From the NCBI GenBank assembly GCA_023301025.1, contig JALZUR010000009.1, forward strand, positions 1 to 60,630: a DNA stretch of 60,630 nt, read 5' to 3'. The DNA is from Bdellovibrionales bacterium (GTDB taxonomy: Bacteria; Bdellovibrionota; Bdellovibrionia; Bdellovibrionales; UBA1609). A program made the position numbers and the translations under genes. The notes below the pieces were generated by a model. The model did not search any database. It was not told where the DNA came from and worked only from the letters and a program-made list of their open reading frames with translations. Shown here in pieces: positions 50,794-57,698 of the stretch (position 1 is the first letter of the stretch; the number at the start of each line of letters is the position of its first letter).

Positions 50794-51690
50794 ATGTCTA
50801 ATTTTATCTCTCCTGAAGTAGCCGTAATCCCAGCAGCTGGAAAAGGAACACGGTTTTTACCCTCAACCAAAGCCACTCCAAAAGAGCTTCACCCACTTTT
50901 AAACACCCCCTTGCTTCACCACTCGCTTAAAGAGTTAAAAGAGGCTGGTGTAAAAGAAGTTATAATTGTAAATCACCCAGATAAAAAAGGTCTTAACAGG
51001 TACTTTGAGTCACACTCAGAATTAAAAAAACATGTTTCAAAAAATTCTGATTTGGTTAAAGCTCTAGACTCAATTGATGATTTACCAAAAGTCATATTTG
51101 TTTATCAAACAGAGCAAAAAGGTTTAGCACATGCCATAAGCTGTGCTGAAAGTGTTTTAAACGGCAGAGATTTTTTTGTTTTACTGCCTGATGAAATATT
51201 TTTTAAAGACGCAAAAGGTAAAAATCCATCAGAAGCACTACTTGAATCTTTTAGAGATTCAAGAAACTCATGTGTTAGCCTACTAGAAGTACCTAAAGAT
51301 AAAGTCTCTTCCTATGGTGTGGTTAAATTTAATAAAAAAAGCTCTACGAACGAATCAGATAGTCTTAGTAAAGTCGAAATCACAGATATAATAGAAAAAC
51401 CAAAAGTGTCTGAAGCCCCTTCAAATTTGATTTTACCTGGGCGTTATCTTTTTAAAAATAAAATTTTAGAGTGCATAAGAAAAACACCCGTAGATAAAAA
51501 TGGTGAAGTAAAACTTACTGACTCAATGGTACTTCTTTCTAAAGAAGAACCTCTAATTGGAATTGTAACAGACTGTCCACGCTTTGATGGTGGCTCAGTC
51601 CTTGGTTTTTTAAAAGCAAACGTATACGCCGCTCTTAAAGACCCGAAGCTCTCTAAAGATTTTGAAAGCTACTTAAAAAGCCTCTTATGA
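50794..51690 (+). CDS. galU: UTP-glucose-1-phosphate uridylyltransferase
   Basis: A 298-residue enzyme forming UDP-glucose, precursor of LPS and other glycans. Motifs: VIPAAGKGTRFLPSTKATPKE (nucleotide site), then EVIIVNHPDKK, QKGLAHAI, VLLPDE and the sugar site in GRYLF, with FDGGSVLGFLKANV at the end. It overlaps the zincin lipoprotein gene by four bases (ATGA). Confidence 0.95.
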   Translation: MSNFISPEVAVIPAAGKGTRFLPSTKATPKELHPLLNTPLLHHSLKELKEAGVKEVIIVNHPDKKGLNRYFESHSELKKHVSKNSDLVKALDSIDDLPKVIFVYQTEQKGLAHAISCAESVLNGRDFFVLLPDEIFFKDAKGKNPSEALLESFRDSRNSCVSLLEVPKDKVSSYGVVKFNKKSSTNESDSLSKVEITDIIEKPKVSEAPSNLILPGRYLFKNKILECIRKTPVDKNGEVKLTDSMVLLSKEEPLIGIVTDCPRFDGGSVLGFLKANVYAALKDPKLSKDFESYLKSLL

Positions 51691-52538
51691 AATCTACTGT
51701 TTGTATTTTTTTTATTTTCACACTCTTAGCACAAAGCAGTTGTAACACTTCAGTTAAAAAAATAAACATCTTCTCAAGAAAACCAAGTAATTCAATGCAT
51801 GAACCAGGTAAAGCTACTACTTTGTTGTTTTATAAAAAGCATTTTGAAGTAGATCTAGATGAAATGAGTAATCTTTTAGATAAACTAATTTCTTTAAAAA
51901 AATTTCCTGATTTTTTGAGGGCTTTAACACTTAACGATCTAGATCCAAACTGGAAGACAAAGTGTACAGAAGTAAAAAACACTGAAATACAAAATATTTT
52001 TTCAACACTCAAAAAAAAATTTTTTAGAGATATTGAAATACCCTTGTACTCATGCAATTGGAAGTATGAAACAGGAACCTTATTAGAAAATGGGATTTTT
52101 ATATCGAATGCAAATCAAATTGATTTAAGTAATGAACTTGAATTGACTAACTTTAAATTTACTATTGCACATGAAATAGCACACTACGTTCATGAAATTT
52201 CGACTATGCTACCTTATAGTCAAGAAGAAGGCTTTTCAATAAATGGCTATACCTCTTATAGACTAGATAAAACCAAATCGTGTCAAGATTTGAGCAGAAT
52301 AGATAGGCGAGATGAATGTGAAATAAAACTTTGGGAAAATGGCCACTCAGAAGTAGATATTTATGCTGCTTTAGTCTTAGATAGAATAGGGTTAAACAAT
52401 TGGGAGCTTCTAGAAAAAAGCCTTATCAAAAGTGTTAACGAATATATAAGAGTCAACTCTCTACAAAATGAGAAAGATTATTATATTGATCAAATTAGAA
52501 GGCGAATTTCTCGTATTAAATACTATTTTCCTCAATAG
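51687..52538 (+). CDS. Zincin-type metalloprotease lipoprotein
   Basis: A 283-residue lipoprotein (signal ending AQSSC, Cys19). The zinc motif H162-E163-I-A-H166 and a downstream H-S-E222-V-D-I-Y-A-A fit a gluzincin active site, with Glu222 as likely third ligand. The rest does not match a family I know. It shares its start with the galU stop, so the two are co-translated, though the link in function is not clear. Four extra Cys in the mature part may pair. Confidence 0.7.
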   Translation: MKSTVCIFFIFTLLAQSSCNTSVKKINIFSRKPSNSMHEPGKATTLLFYKKHFEVDLDEMSNLLDKLISLKKFPDFLRALTLNDLDPNWKTKCTEVKNTEIQNIFSTLKKKFFRDIEIPLYSCNWKYETGTLLENGIFISNANQIDLSNELELTNFKFTIAHEIAHYVHEISTMLPYSQEEGFSINGYTSYRLDKTKSCQDLSRIDRRDECEIKLWENGHSEVDIYAALVLDRIGLNNWELLEKSLIKSVNEYIRVNSLQNEKDYYIDQIRRRISRIKYYFPQ

Positions 52539-52558: not shown

Positions 52559-53425
52559 TCAATAGACCTCTACTGACCCCATATCAACTTCAATATAAAC
52601 ACGTCCTGATCCATCACCAAAAATATATTCATCTCCAGACTTTTTGTAACCCTCTACAACATCTAACTCACCAACAGTCACATTAGAGTATAAAGTAAAG
52701 TTTTTCTCTAAACCTTCAATTGAACCATATCTTAATGCACCCGCTTGAACATGAGCTTCAAAATTTGTACTTTGAACAGCCGAATTAAAGTGAGCTGAAC
52801 CACCTGAAACCTCCATTCGCACTTCAGGAGCCGCAACTGATAGAAATTCAGCCTCACCTGCAGACAGGTTTACTTCACCTTTTTTAAAACTTAAAGATTC
52901 AGACTTAAAACTACCAGCAGAGACATCTAGAACAAAAGTGTTAAAAGAAAGCTCGGGCTTAAGAGTCAGGCTACCTGCTTGAAGGTTGATTTTTACATCA
53001 GGGTAAGGTTTTTTAATTTTAGGCAAATACAAATCCAACTTAACAGTTTGGACAAATGAAAGGCTTCCTTTTTTCTGAGTTAGGTTCATAAAAAGAGTGT
53101 TTTTATTTTTAGAAATCTCTAAAGGCATTTTATCACCCGTGTAGCTAATATCATAGCTTACATCTGTTACTCCATCCTTTTGATAATGCAGCACAACTTC
53201 AGCAGCGGAAAATTCTAGAACATACTCTTTAACACCTTTTACTGAAATTGTTTGAGACTCTTTATTTTCCTTTTCATTATTAAAGACTTTATAAACATTT
53301 AAACCAAAAGAGCTAACATCTTTTGCACCAGCTAAAGCCGGTTTAAACTTTGATTTACTTAATAATGTAAAACCTAAAACTAAGGACAACAACGATACAA
53401 GAAATACTATAAACGTTTTTTTCAT
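52559..53425 (-). CDS. DUF4097 beta-helix-like exported protein
   Basis: A 288-residue protein with one N-terminal membrane helix or signal (about 4-23) and a body of short repeated strands (DVSAGSFKSES, NLSAGEAEF, EVSGGSAHF, VQAGALRYG) typical of DUF4097 and the LiaG/adhesin-like beta-helix. The preceding DUF1700 gene overlaps it by four bases. This pair is widespread and often linked to envelope stress control, usually with a PadR regulator, which is missing here. Confidence 0.8.
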   Translation of the reverse strand: MKKTFIVFLVSLLSLVLGFTLLSKSKFKPALAGAKDVSSFGLNVYKVFNNEKENKESQTISVKGVKEYVLEFSAAEVVLHYQKDGVTDVSYDISYTGDKMPLEISKNKNTLFMNLTQKKGSLSFVQTVKLDLYLPKIKKPYPDVKINLQAGSLTLKPELSFNTFVLDVSAGSFKSESLSFKKGEVNLSAGEAEFLSVAAPEVRMEVSGGSAHFNSAVQSTNFEAHVQAGALRYGSIEGLEKNFTLYSNVTVGELDVVEGYKKSGDEYIFGDGSGRVYIEVDMGSVEVY

Positions 53426-54024
53426 TTTAGCTCCTTTTTTAAAAACCTAAGGTTCCATTTTAAATACTGCAATATTTTTGATACGAACCAATTAAAAGAA
53501 TAATAATTAGCAAGTATTGAAGTGATCAAGAATCCAATAAGTCCGAGAACTATAAAAAAAACAGCTAAGAACTCTAACCACCCACAATCAAAAAGAAAAA
53601 CTGTAAAGGGTGAAAAAGCTAAGAGAGCAAATGGAAATAGAAGTCCAAAATTTATCGTAAACCAACCAAACATGAAAGGTAGAATAACAAACAATGGAAT
53701 TAACAGTATAATTATGTTTAAAGGCACAAAGCCAAAAAGAAGAGCTGTAACTTTTAAAGACTCTTTAAAAGAAGACCACACTCTGTCGTTACCTTGAGCC
53801 TTATCAACTCTCTTTTGTACACTTTCAACTTTTTGATTGAATTTAATTTTTTTAGCAATAATTTTTGGATGCCCTATAGCCTTTATAGCCTCTTCTTGTG
53901 TTAGACCTTTTTTGACTTCTTCTGAAAATTTTTCTTTATATTCTTTTAAAATAACTCTTCTAACACTTTCAGAAAGGTAACTTAATTCTGTTTCTAAGAT
54001 CTTAAAAAATTCATTTTCATTCAC
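53422..54024 (-). CDS. DUF1700 membrane protein
   Basis: A 200-residue protein: a cytoplasmic helical N-terminus with LTQEEAIKAIGHPKIIAKKI, the DUF1700 hallmark, then three to four membrane helices (about 88-180). GTG start at 54024 with GGAG five bases upstream. It likely partners the DUF4097 protein in the membrane. No upstream PadR-type regulator gene is present. Confidence 0.8.
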   Translation of the reverse strand: MNENEFFKILETELSYLSESVRRVILKEYKEKFSEEVKKGLTQEEAIKAIGHPKIIAKKIKFNQKVESVQKRVDKAQGNDRVWSSFKESLKVTALLFGFVPLNIIILLIPLFVILPFMFGWFTINFGLLFPFALLAFSPFTVFLFDCGWLEFLAVFFIVLGLIGFLITSILANYYSFNWFVSKILQYLKWNLRFLKKELK

Positions 54025-54117: not shown

Positions 54118-54146
54118 TAATCAGGTTACTTTATGAATACTATAAT
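54118..54146 (+). promoter_or_regulatory. Promoter for the FixH-like/OMP/His-rich operon
   Basis: A perfect TATAAT lies at 54141-54146 with a poor -35 (TAATCA) 17 bases before it. A hairpin GCTTA/TAAGC (about 54147-54174) follows in the leader. Confidence 0.45.
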
Positions 54147-54211
54147 GCTTAATTTTTTAAAAAACTCATAAGCTTTTAAGAAGTCTCTAAACAATGCTTA
54201 TACCCAAAGAT

Positions 54212-54673
54212 ATGTTTCTTTTTAAAACTAATAGCTTTAACTGTCTTAAAAAAACATTGTTACTCTTATCATTTTTTTTAAATCTAACGGCTTGTCCTCT
54301 TAATCATATGAAAGTCCTTAGGACAGAAACATGCCCTTCTGTTGTTGAGCTCAACGAAAAAACAAACATTCAACTTAAATGGCTTAAAGGTCCTTTTGGA
54401 GATCCACAAACTGATTCAATACTTTTTCTAAAGGTCTTAGACAAAGATAAAGCCGCAAAATCTTTACCTCTTGGCTACCATTTTTTTATCCAAGCTAGTA
54501 TGGGGATGGGTCATGGGCTTTCTGATACTGGTGAATTTAAAACTACAAACCAAAACGAATGGATAAATGATGAAATATCATTTTATATGCCTGGTCCCTA
54601 CGATATCAAGATTTATCTCACTGATGAAAACTATAATGAGCTAGGAGAAGCCACATGGTGCTCCGTTTTTTAA
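54212..54673 (+). CDS. FixH/YtkA-like lipoprotein
   Basis: A ~153-residue lipoprotein from the ATG at 54212 (an ATG at 54194 adds six residues). The signal ends N-L-T-A-C. The mature domain has an immunoglobulin-like strand pattern with MGMGHGLSDTG followed by SFYMPGPYDIKIYLTDE, which resembles FixH/YtkA proteins linked to copper handling. The Met and His residues of MGMGHG could bind copper. First of three tightly packed genes; its end overlaps the next start by 19 bases. Confidence 0.5.
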   Translation: MFLFKTNSFNCLKKTLLLLSFFLNLTACPLNHMKVLRTETCPSVVELNEKTNIQLKWLKGPFGDPQTDSILFLKVLDKDKAAKSLPLGYHFFIQASMGMGHGLSDTGEFKTTNQNEWINDEISFYMPGPYDIKIYLTDENYNELGEATWCSVF

Positions 54674-55608
54674 AATTTTTATCTATTTTTTTTCTATTTA
54701 TTTTGAGCTTTTACAGCACTAAGGCTTTTTCACTAAGCTGCTGTGGTAGCTCTCCAGTAAACTATTACATACCAGAGGACCATCAAGATTTAAACTTTAC
54801 TCTGGGCTACTCAAATGTTCATGCCGTTGGAAGAGTGTTCCAAGATACGAAAAATTTTATAAAATGGACGGATAAAGAAAGACTATTAAACATCATACAT
54901 TTTTCAGCATCTTATAAAGTAAAAGAAAAGTTGAGCTTAAGCCTTCAAAATGCCTACTACTATTCTACGTATAAAGATTCTTCACTGGATCAAGTTGATG
55001 AAAATTTTGGAGACACTCTTTTATCTATCAATTATGAGCCAAACATCTATAAAATAAAATCGTCTCCATTTAAAAACTCTAGAGTATACACTTCGGCTTT
55101 AGTTAACCTCCCCACTGGAAGATCTATTTTTGAAAACCGTATTCTTCCTGAGGCAGCAAACGTTACAGGTCATGATTTATGGGGCTTAGGGGCTGGATTA
55201 ACTGTTTTAAAAAGAATAAAAAATTATAATTTAGATCTTCAAACCAAGATTTTAAATATATTTTCAGATCGAATCAACAACCAGTTTATTTCAAGCTACT
55301 ATGACATTTCAATATCTTTAATGCTGTCTAAGTCTTTTTCATTTTTTTCTACTCAATCTCCCACATGGCAGATCAGTACAGGTCTTAACTGGTCTTATGT
55401 TTCAAAAAGAAAACGCCGTGGATTTGAAGTAGTCGGAGAAAACTTAAGTGCTCTTTCTAATCAAAAAACAGCTACTTTTTTTAAACTTAGAAAATCTTTT
55501 GACGATTTTAACATCATTCTTTCTTATAGCGACGAAACGCTCCTAGGTAGACCAAGAAATACAATCATTAATCGAACATTTTTAATAAATTTATCAAAAA
55601 ATATTTAA
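54655..55608 (+). CDS. Outer-membrane beta-barrel protein of the three-gene operon
   Basis: A 317-residue exported protein. After the signal peptide the mature N-terminus is SLSCCGSS, two adjacent cysteines that could bind metal, then alternating strands such as LNFTLGYSNVHAVGRVF and SLSLQNAYYYST. It ends IINRTFLINLSKNI. The layout fits a small porin or transporter barrel. AGGAG lies seven bases before the ATG, inside the upstream gene. The family is not recognised with certainty. Confidence 0.55.
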   Translation: MVLRFLKFLSIFFLFILSFYSTKAFSLSCCGSSPVNYYIPEDHQDLNFTLGYSNVHAVGRVFQDTKNFIKWTDKERLLNIIHFSASYKVKEKLSLSLQNAYYYSTYKDSSLDQVDENFGDTLLSINYEPNIYKIKSSPFKNSRVYTSALVNLPTGRSIFENRILPEAANVTGHDLWGLGAGLTVLKRIKNYNLDLQTKILNIFSDRINNQFISSYYDISISLMLSKSFSFFSTQSPTWQISTGLNWSYVSKRKRRGFEVVGENLSALSNQKTATFFKLRKSFDDFNIILSYSDETLLGRPRNTIINRTFLINLSKNI

Positions 55609-55621
55609 GGAAAGTTTAACT

Positions 55622-56206
55622 ATGCTTCTCATAAATTTTATTCACTTTTTAATGACAGCAATCACAACGCCCTCTTTTGCACACTGTCCAAATTCATTTA
55701 CCTTTAATGATCAAACTTTTTGCGCAGATTTTGAGTGGGAAAAAACTGATATTCTAAAAGGTAAATCTTTAATGAGTCCTGTGCTCAATTCTAGTGCTCA
55801 AAAGCCTTTTGAGCAGCACTTGTCAAAGTTTTGGCTAAACATATGGGCTAGTGGTGATACCAATCATAAAGTGCTTTTTTTTGAAGATTTAGAAATAGAC
55901 CCTTTTATGCTGATGTCACACATACCTCATCACGGCGGCGAACTAAAGGGAGATATTAAATTTGTAAAAGATAGGGGTTACTTTATTTCAGGTGTTAATT
56001 TTGTAAAAATGCAAGGCTGTTGGTCTATAGCTATTGAAAACGATCAATTTTTTCATTTAATCCTTATAGCTCATTTCAAAAATTTAGATGAGAAACAAAA
56101 CTTTGAACAAAACAAACTGTGCACTTTGCTACATGAAGAGTTTTTAGCTGAAGATCTTATAAAATCTCACAATCATTTGAATGATTCAGATCACTCTAAA
56201 CACTAA
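55622..56206 (+). CDS. Histidine-rich exported protein with FixH-like core
   Basis: A 194-residue protein with a signal peptide (to SFA, ~20) and four cysteines. The core has HIPHHGGELKG and then NFVKMQGCWSIAIEND, in the same order as the GHG and MPGPYDI elements of the first operon gene, so the two may share a fold. The end is His-rich (SHNHLNDSDHSKH). Metal binding is likely, copper or zinc being guesses. AAGGAAAG precedes the ATG. Confidence 0.55.
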   Translation: MLLINFIHFLMTAITTPSFAHCPNSFTFNDQTFCADFEWEKTDILKGKSLMSPVLNSSAQKPFEQHLSKFWLNIWASGDTNHKVLFFEDLEIDPFMLMSHIPHHGGELKGDIKFVKDRGYFISGVNFVKMQGCWSIAIENDQFFHLILIAHFKNLDEKQNFEQNKLCTLLHEEFLAEDLIKSHNHLNDSDHSKH

Positions 56207-56223: not shown

Positions 56224-56253
56224 AAAAAACTAAGCAAATATGCTTAGTTTTTT
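56224..56253. terminator. Bidirectional intrinsic terminator
   Basis: A 13-base stem (AAAAAACTAAGCA with TGCTTAGTTTTTT, four-base loop) with A and T runs on its two sides. It ends both the three-gene operon and the convergent rpsN. Confidence 0.8.
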
Positions 56254-56325: not shown

Positions 56326-56631
56326 TCACCAGCTAGACTTAACAACACCAGGGATCAGACCGCGGCTAGCCATATCTCTAAAAGCTATACGCGAAACTCC
56401 AAACTTTCTTAGATGTCCTCTTGGACGGCCAGTAATAGCACAACGATTTGTAACTCTAACGCCTATAGAACGACTAGGTAGACGAGCAAAAGCTCTTTGA
56501 GCTTCCATTTTTTCATCTAAACCAGCCGCAGGGTCTTTCATAATTTTTCTGAGAGCATCTCTTTTTTCTTTAAATCGCTCAACCACTACTTTTTTTTGAT
56601 TGTTTTTTTGAATCATAGAAATTTTAGCCAC
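56326..56631 (-). CDS. rpsN: Ribosomal protein S14 (zinc-free long form)
   Basis: A 101-residue S14. [26 protein letters not shown] is the family core, and the CxxC pairs of the zinc form are absent. It starts with GTG at 56631, AGG eight bases before. It stands alone and not inside a ribosomal operon, so it could be the sole S14 gene moved, or a zinc-independent paralogue used when zinc is low. Confidence 0.92.
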
Positions 56632-56698: not shown

Positions 56699-56765
56699 CT
56701 TTTGCTTTGACCTTTAACCTCAGCTCTTCTCATAATTACATGAACCAAAAAAAGTGAGGCACTAT

Positions 56766-57698
56766 ATGACTAAATCCATAGTATTTTTTGTTTTAACACT
56801 CGGCTTAACAGCTTGCGGTGGATGGACAAAGAAAAAATGTCAACGCACTGATTTTTCAAGTGTGGGATACTCAAGAGGATCTAAAGGTAAAATTGGACAA
56901 AGTGATCAAATAAACTCAGCATGCCTCAAAAAAGGTGTAACCATAAACGTTTCAAGCTATCAAGATGGCTATAACAATGGTTTAGAAACCTACTGTTCGG
57001 ACAACAAGGCGCGTAGAGATGGAAGCGACGGCTACGAAGCTATAAACATTTGTAAAAACAATCCCTCTTATATGAGAGCCTACGATAAAGGGTTAAAAAC
57101 GTACTGCACTGTTGATAAAGGCATTAAGGATGGGTACGCCCTTTCGGAAAAGAAAACAGTCTGTTTGAGTATAAAAGCTTACCTAACAGGTCATAAAAAT
57201 GGCGTAAAAACATTTTGTTCTTTTGAAAAAGGCCAAGAAGATGGCTTTTTAGGCTCTAAAATGAACTCAAAGTGCATCAGCCAGAGTGGCTATAAAGATG
57301 GGCACAAAAGTGGGCTTCTTAACTTTTGTAAACCTGAAAACGGTAGACGCCTTGGTGAAAAGGGTGAAGAGCGACCTAAGAGGTGTTCAAAGTCAGAGTT
57401 TAGAGCCTCATATGACAAAGGAAGAACTTTATTTCTTACAAAAAAAGTTAATGATTTGAGCTCTAAACTTGAAGTTGAAAATCGCAATTATCAAAACCTT
57501 CGAGACGAACTTCAAGATGCCCAATTTTCGTATCAAGAGCTCTCTCAAAGAAGCCCAACACCACGAACAGATGAGCGAAAAAGAACACTGTCAGAAGACA
57601 TAAGAAAGTTAAAAAAAGACCGAAATAATCAGCGTGAAACGGTCACAGAATTAGAAAGCGAGTTGAGTGATCTAAAAGCTGAACTTAAAGACCTCTAA
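56766..57698 (+). CDS. Repeat lipoprotein (DUF2799-like units) with C-terminal coiled coil
   Basis: A 310-residue lipoprotein (signal ending L-T-A-C). Four tandem units begin at residues 65, 102, 139 and 176, exactly 37 apart, with a partial unit at 212. Each has the form Y-x-x-x-x-x-x-G, then (Y/F)C, two spaced G and a closing C, like DUF2799. After about 225 a Glu/Lys/Gln-rich coiled coil runs to the end. GAGG lies six bases before the ATG at 56766. The paired Cys of each unit probably form disulfides. The function is unknown. Confidence 0.75.
   Translation: MTKSIVFFVLTLGLTACGGWTKKKCQRTDFSSVGYSRGSKGKIGQSDQINSACLKKGVTINVSSYQDGYNNGLETYCSDNKARRDGSDGYEAINICKNNPSYMRAYDKGLKTYCTVDKGIKDGYALSEKKTVCLSIKAYLTGHKNGVKTFCSFEKGQEDGFLGSKMNSKCISQSGYKDGHKSGLLNFCKPENGRRLGEKGEERPKRCSKSEFRASYDKGRTLFLTKKVNDLSSKLEVENRNYQNLRDELQDAQFSYQELSQRSPTPRTDERKRTLSEDIRKLKKDRNNQRETVTELESELSDLKAELKDL

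Follow-up and report, generated by a model that had tools for sequence, protein, structure and literature searches.

A three-gene operon for exported proteins, designated P1, P2 and P3, was recognized in the genome of a Bdellovibrionales bacterium, and sequence and model evidence indicates that it is probably a copper-trafficking module of the cell envelope, in which chaperones with Met/His sites would serve an outer-membrane pore. The operon lies in a stretch of 60,630 nt (positions 1 to 60,630 of contig JALZUR010000009.1), here called the window. By gene order it appears as a reduced copy of a cassette found across the phylum, whose full form comprises a redoxin/Trx-like protein, a YtkA-like lipoprotein, a barrel headed by two cysteines (CC-barrel) and a second YtkA-like protein. 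The parts are known (YtkA/CrdA-type chaperones, a FapF-type barrel and a redoxin), and what is new is the layout. No description of this layout, or of a copper operon in Bdellovibrio, was found in the literature searched.

Operon layout and its three products

The tight coupling of the three genes described in the initial annotation is borne out by the ORF coordinates, with a 19-nt overlap between P1 and P2 and a 13-nt gap between P2 and P3 (Table 1). A shared bidirectional terminator was likewise found between P3 and the convergent gene at 56326-56631, with stem arms at 56224-56236 and 56241-56253 flanked by A- and T-runs and an energy of about -17 kcal/mol on either strand; the automated terminator scan missed this 13-nt repeat because its T-run belongs to the stem. 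The operon's supposed own promoter was not supported, as the sigma-70 promoter scan returned 17 promoter-like sites against 15.2 expected by chance, with no excess. The operon stands above chance level because its gene order and key residues are kept across dozens of genomes. All three products carry the export signals ascribed to them, P1 a lipobox and P2 and P3 N-terminal hydrophobic signal sequences.

Table 1 Features of the operon in the window
Feature	Coordinates	Strand	Description	Evidence
P1	54194..54673	+	YtkA/CrdA-like lipoprotein, 159 aa	ORF, invariant residues, model, CrdA match
P2	54655..55608	+	Outer-membrane barrel, FapF/COG4313 type, 12-strand, 317 aa	
P2 Cys29-Cys30 codons	54739..54744	+	Conserved CC head	
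P3	55622..56206	+	Second YtkA-like protein, His-rich, exported, 194 aa	
Bidirectional intrinsic terminator	56224..56253	.	Perfect 13-nt stem, 4-nt loop	

Several other genes surround the operon. A lipoprotein with a weak SprT/M78-like match and a metalloprotease-type motif, HEIAHYVHE, is encoded at 51687-52538. Two overlapping genes at 52559-54024 on the minus strand, divergent from the operon and recognized by eye only, encode a membrane protein whose N-terminal helical segment is similar to a DUF1700/HAAS regulator domain and a DUF4097-like exported protein, respectively. The product of 56754-57698 is a lipoprotein that has DUF2799 repeats in several copies (Pfam 1.5e-30) and a coiled coil at its C-terminus.

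Pfam, NCBIfam and PHROGs gave nothing useful for P1-P3 of the window, and the proteins were classified through profiles, homologues and structure models. The lipobox of P1, LTAC, ends at the lipid cysteine Cys34, and the strict lipobox pattern is present in 16 of 33 P1 proteins. The mature protein carries the motif M103-G-M105-G-H107-G followed by F-Y-M132-P-G-P-Y-D-I, in which M103, H107, M132 and G134 are invariant in the alignment and M105 nearly so; M103, M105, H107 and M132 are proposed from this pattern as Cu(I) ligands. The structure closest to the P1 model (mean pLDDT 86) in Foldseek is Helicobacter pylori CrdA, a copper-binding protein crystallized with silver, which VIA-align superimposes on 100 residues with a Z score of 11.9 and an rmsd of 2.5, ahead of the FetP/Tp34/P19 group (Z about 9.5). 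CrdA is also the only sequence match of the P1 profile in the PDB below E 0.1 (E 0.0036). The MGMGH segment falls on the Met-rich segment of CrdA and M132 on the later Met of LSMNGTW, so that the invariant Met/His residues of P1 align with the CrdA methionine cluster and would occupy the position of its copper site, giving P1 a CrdA-like fold with a conserved Met cluster. In CrdA, the sulfur cluster consists of Met69, 72, 75, 78 and 99, where tight Cu(I) binding has been proposed (PMC9182242). The two proteins differ in that CrdA has no His, no CC-barrel and no Trx partner, and they share 13% identity over the aligned part.

The initial annotation had placed P1 in a FixH/YtkA-like class, of which the YtkA(/CrdA) half is retained. 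The Pfam YtkA-like family (PF13115) was matched by 29 of the 33 P1 homologues in the same operon slot (best 6.2e-10, some above the curated cut-off), and P1 and P3 of the window gave no match up to E 5. The FixH class was rejected, because PF05751 was matched by only two of the 33 homologues (best 0.0061) and not by the window protein. In the P1 homologues of L117, L123 and L136, RMTCCG replaces the MPSMGH site and the second motif Met is missing, possibly representing a ligand swap from Met/His to Cys/Cys, again soft-metal ligands.

P3 contains M96-L-M98, then H103-H104-G-G and M130-Q-G-C-W-S-I, and ends in a His-rich tail; M96, M98, M130 and W134 are invariant in the alignment, and its cysteines are C22, C34, C133 and C167. 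The element order that P1 and P3 had been said to share is present, with MGMGHG before FYMPGPYDI in the former and HHGG before MQGCWSI in the latter. The two proteins are related by profile (hhalign E 9.8e-10), a kinship on which the initial annotation had made its reading depend, and P3 is accordingly classed as a paralogue of P1. P3 is also grouped by profile with the second YtkA-like proteins of relatives, at E 6.8e-19 in an hhalign alignment that took in intermediate L118 and L119 proteins matching both profiles. Searched against the PDB, the P3 profile gave chance matches only.

The model of P2 (mean pLDDT 88) has 12 long strands, and among solved structures it comes closest to FapF and the COG4313 channel (4rl8), both with Z 24.2; FapF is also found by sequence with the P2 profile (E 3.7e-11). 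P2 is predicted on these grounds, 12 strands plus sequence similarity, to be a 12-strand barrel of the FapF/COG4313 superfamily. P2 might export polypeptides as FapF does, or pass small hydrophobic molecules in the manner of the COG4313 channel, and the YtkA proteins would then be accessories. Despite the fold and profile matches this is highly improbable: the cassettes hold no amyloid-type substrate gene, their constant partners are YtkA and Trx/NosL proteins, and only about 20 residues separate the signal sequence from the first strand. The amyloid exporter role was rejected on the same partners and on the short N-terminus, which has no long periplasmic domain. P2 thus resembles FapF and the COG4313 channel in barrel fold and sequence, and differs from them in its CC head, operon context and proposed cargo.

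PcoB/CopB offers another comparison: it too is a barrel of the outer membrane, belongs to a copper operon whose other products include periplasmic copper-binding proteins, and has an N-terminal copper-ligand segment. The fold match of P2 to PcoB is weaker (Z 13.1) than that to FapF, none of 35 barrels matches CopB/PcoB (PF05275) at E up to 1, and the His/Met-rich disordered N-terminal domain of the CopB/PcoB type is absent from P2, which has instead the short segment between signal sequence and first strand with its two-residue CC head. Moreover, the partners here are YtkA proteins, not PcoC, and there is no PcoA.

As the initial annotation had stated, the mature part of P2 opens with CC, C29-C30 directly following the signal sequence. 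Both cysteines are invariant in the 35-sequence alignment, and a CC head is seen in 69 of 73 distinct barrels and a CH head in three, while 68 lack any Cys beyond the head. Conservation of the CC and Met/His residues in homologues, on which the annotation had made its reading depend, was thus observed, the head being CC or CH in 72 of 73 barrels, and M103, H107 and M132 of P1 and M96, M98 and M130 of P3 being invariant. In outer-membrane barrels with an even number of strands, both termini lie on the periplasmic side. Two assignments of P2 were discarded, namely as a lipoprotein (strict lipobox pattern in none of 35 P2) and as Pox_E8 (one weak match, attributed to chance).

The cassette across Bdellovibrionota

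Of the 291 genomes that were sampled from the phylum, 140, about half, contain the barrel. When 99 related genomes, one of them the window's own, were searched with single sequences, 48 proved to have a P2 relative, 14 a P1 relative and 11 a P3 relative, and in these genomes P1, P2 and P3 are adjacent in the same order at ten places outside the window. The loci of the 73 distinct barrels were chosen for holding the barrel and include some close relatives, and the linkage counts are plain tallies over them. A YtkA-like gene directly precedes the barrel at 66 of these loci, a redoxin/Trx-like gene occurs no more than three genes upstream at 60, and 41 have two or more YtkA-like genes in the vicinity. 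The second YtkA-like gene either precedes the barrel in divergent orientation or follows it. The gene order is therefore kept in other Bdellovibrionota, as the reading in the initial annotation requires, and the window operon itself has a YtkA-type lipoprotein gene directly upstream of a CC-barrel gene. A scan of genome contigs with a profile of the close barrel alignment returned 36 loci, nearly all named as Bdellovibrionota-type MAGs and a few bearing broad or probably wrong labels; the barrel was not found on plasmids.

In the nearest relatives of the window, the cassette is headed by a single-helix membrane protein of 125-145 aa ending in SGLSPP or SGLAPP (L046:7401-7799, L047:9985-10398, L049:1892-2296, L050, L051 and L053-L055). 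It has no Pfam match and is absent from the window.

The redoxin/Trx-like protein is characterized by an invariant CPCSxSH and an invariant late GC-I. No such gene is present in the window operon, and the window genome, which returned only a TlpA/ResA-like protein to this query (match 4e-5), appears to have lost it. In four distant relatives (L120, L121, L128 and L133), NosL-like proteins occupy the Trx slot, with weak Pfam matches of 0.0015 to 0.036 that lie below the curated cut-off. Three of the four have a CH-headed barrel, L133 having kept CC, so that CH-headed barrels coincide with the loss of Trx. This bears on an alternative in which P2, through its CC, and the Trx-like protein, through its CPC, form a disulfide exchange pair for the folding or repair of outer-membrane proteins, metal being secondary. 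The frequent upstream Trx-like gene and its invariant motifs agree with such thiol-redox maintenance, but the three CH barrels cannot form a disulfide, the window operon does without the Trx-like gene, and the YtkA proteins are the constant partners, making the alternative very improbable. The CC head is probably a metal site rather than a disulfide switch, because CH keeps two soft-metal ligands and does away with any disulfide.

Cargo and direction of transport

The metal relay from periplasm to outer membrane suggested in the initial annotation is largely supported and narrowed to copper by genomic linkage, with metal binding, the relay step and its direction as proposals. Copper is preferred because the cassette is linked to copper genes in relatives. 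Genes for PCuAC and Sco1 adjoin it in L059, L082, L088 and L099, and the genes of L128 continue into CopC and CopD. CusA (TIGR00914) is encoded near it in L128 and L133; L133 also has a CusB-type adaptor nearby, and L120 a CsoR/RicR-type repressor. Sco1, PCuAC, NosL, CopC/CopD and CusA/CusB are separate families, encoded beside cassette versions in relatives but not beside the window copy, where no known copper gene was found. In Bacillus, roles of YtkA proteins with copper have been tested, and CtaK supports CuA assembly (PMC13344008; PMC9145763), and NosL is a Cu(I) chaperone (PMC6530538). In L088 and L059, a single compact divergent operon beside the cassette encodes PCuAC, Sco1 and the second YtkA-like protein.

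Several observations run against copper. ZrgA, of a zinc uptake family, adjoins the cassette in L086, L087 and L095; a Fur-family regulator, a His-rich protein and a TonB-dependent receptor are neighbours in L049, and such a receptor is encoded near L105, L106 and L130. These genes, together with the His-rich tails of second YtkA proteins, would fit zinc or another metal as the cargo, which is nevertheless unlikely: the invariant Met ligands and the resemblance to CrdA speak for Cu(I)/Ag(I), and the copper genes are the more varied and more specific neighbours. The lack of any Pfam family for P1 and P3 of the window, the weakness of the NosL matches, the lack of an adjoining copper gene at the window copy and the absence of the barrel from many COX2-bearing relatives also count against copper. 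CuA oxidase was rejected as an obligatory client, since, of 99 relatives, 91 encode COX2 and 59 the barrel. In L086 (2932-4895), L087 and L095, the ZrgA-family gene stands with a YtkA-like gene and a DUF5074-like, probably propeller, gene, all divergent from the cassette, and the propeller gene also occurs in L082.

For copper trafficking, supply to periplasmic cuproenzymes is the direction slightly favoured, at somewhat less than an even chance, because of the Sco, PCuAC, CopC and CopD neighbours. In the window genome, Sco is encoded about 1 kb from the COX2 (CuA oxidase) gene on contig C21 and PCuAC was not found; since the same combination of Sco without PCuAC occurs in Bacillus, P1 and P3 may play the part of CtaK here. 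The B. subtilis CtaK/YcnJ YtkA domain, which acts with Sco in CuA assembly, shares with the operon a YtkA-like lipoprotein, Met/His residues and a His-rich tail (here on P3), and differs in belonging to a Gram-positive organism with no outer membrane; the cassette is not tied to CuA oxidase in this order.

Export or detoxification is a serious though lesser possibility, in which P1 and P3 would collect excess periplasmic Cu(I) and P2 would release it, as has been proposed for CrdA with CrdB-CzcBA in H. pylori and in one reading of PcoB in Caulobacter. It draws on the CusA, CusB and CsoR neighbours in distant relatives, including an HME-RND pump near the cassette as in the crdAB-czcBA copper resistance system, and on CrdA being a resistance determinant (PMC9182242). 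The neighbours that point to supply weigh against it, and no copper pump gene adjoins the window copy. PcoB serves both sides, its direction being disputed between efflux (PMC12509749) and import (PMC9210255).

In either direction of copper trafficking, P2 would be the pore for copper, and the CC or CH at its periplasmic mouth would take up or pass on Cu(I). P1, membrane-anchored, and P3, soluble and His-tailed, would carry copper to or from the CC through their Met/His sites, and in the full cassette the redoxin/Trx-like protein would keep the CC pair or the copper reduced. We tentatively suggest, as a speculative model, that copper crosses the outer membrane through P2 and that a vicinal Cys (or Cys-His) pair at the periplasmic mouth gates or loads this channel; a dedicated Trx-like protein would keep the pair reduced, or a NosL-like protein would serve it, together with two YtkA-type chaperones. 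Predatory-type bacteria would then have a route for copper entry or exit that lies outside the PcoB/CopB family.

Even for PcoB, the way in which copper passes the outer membrane and arrives at cuproenzymes of the periplasm is a matter of dispute. The phylum-wide cassette links one barrel family to YtkA, Sco, PCuAC, NosL, CopCD and CusAB, and it provides a clean genetic system in which supply and export would be separable by removal of single genes. Moreover, the change from CC to CH, coinciding with the change from Trx to NosL, points to a specific mechanism that is testable.
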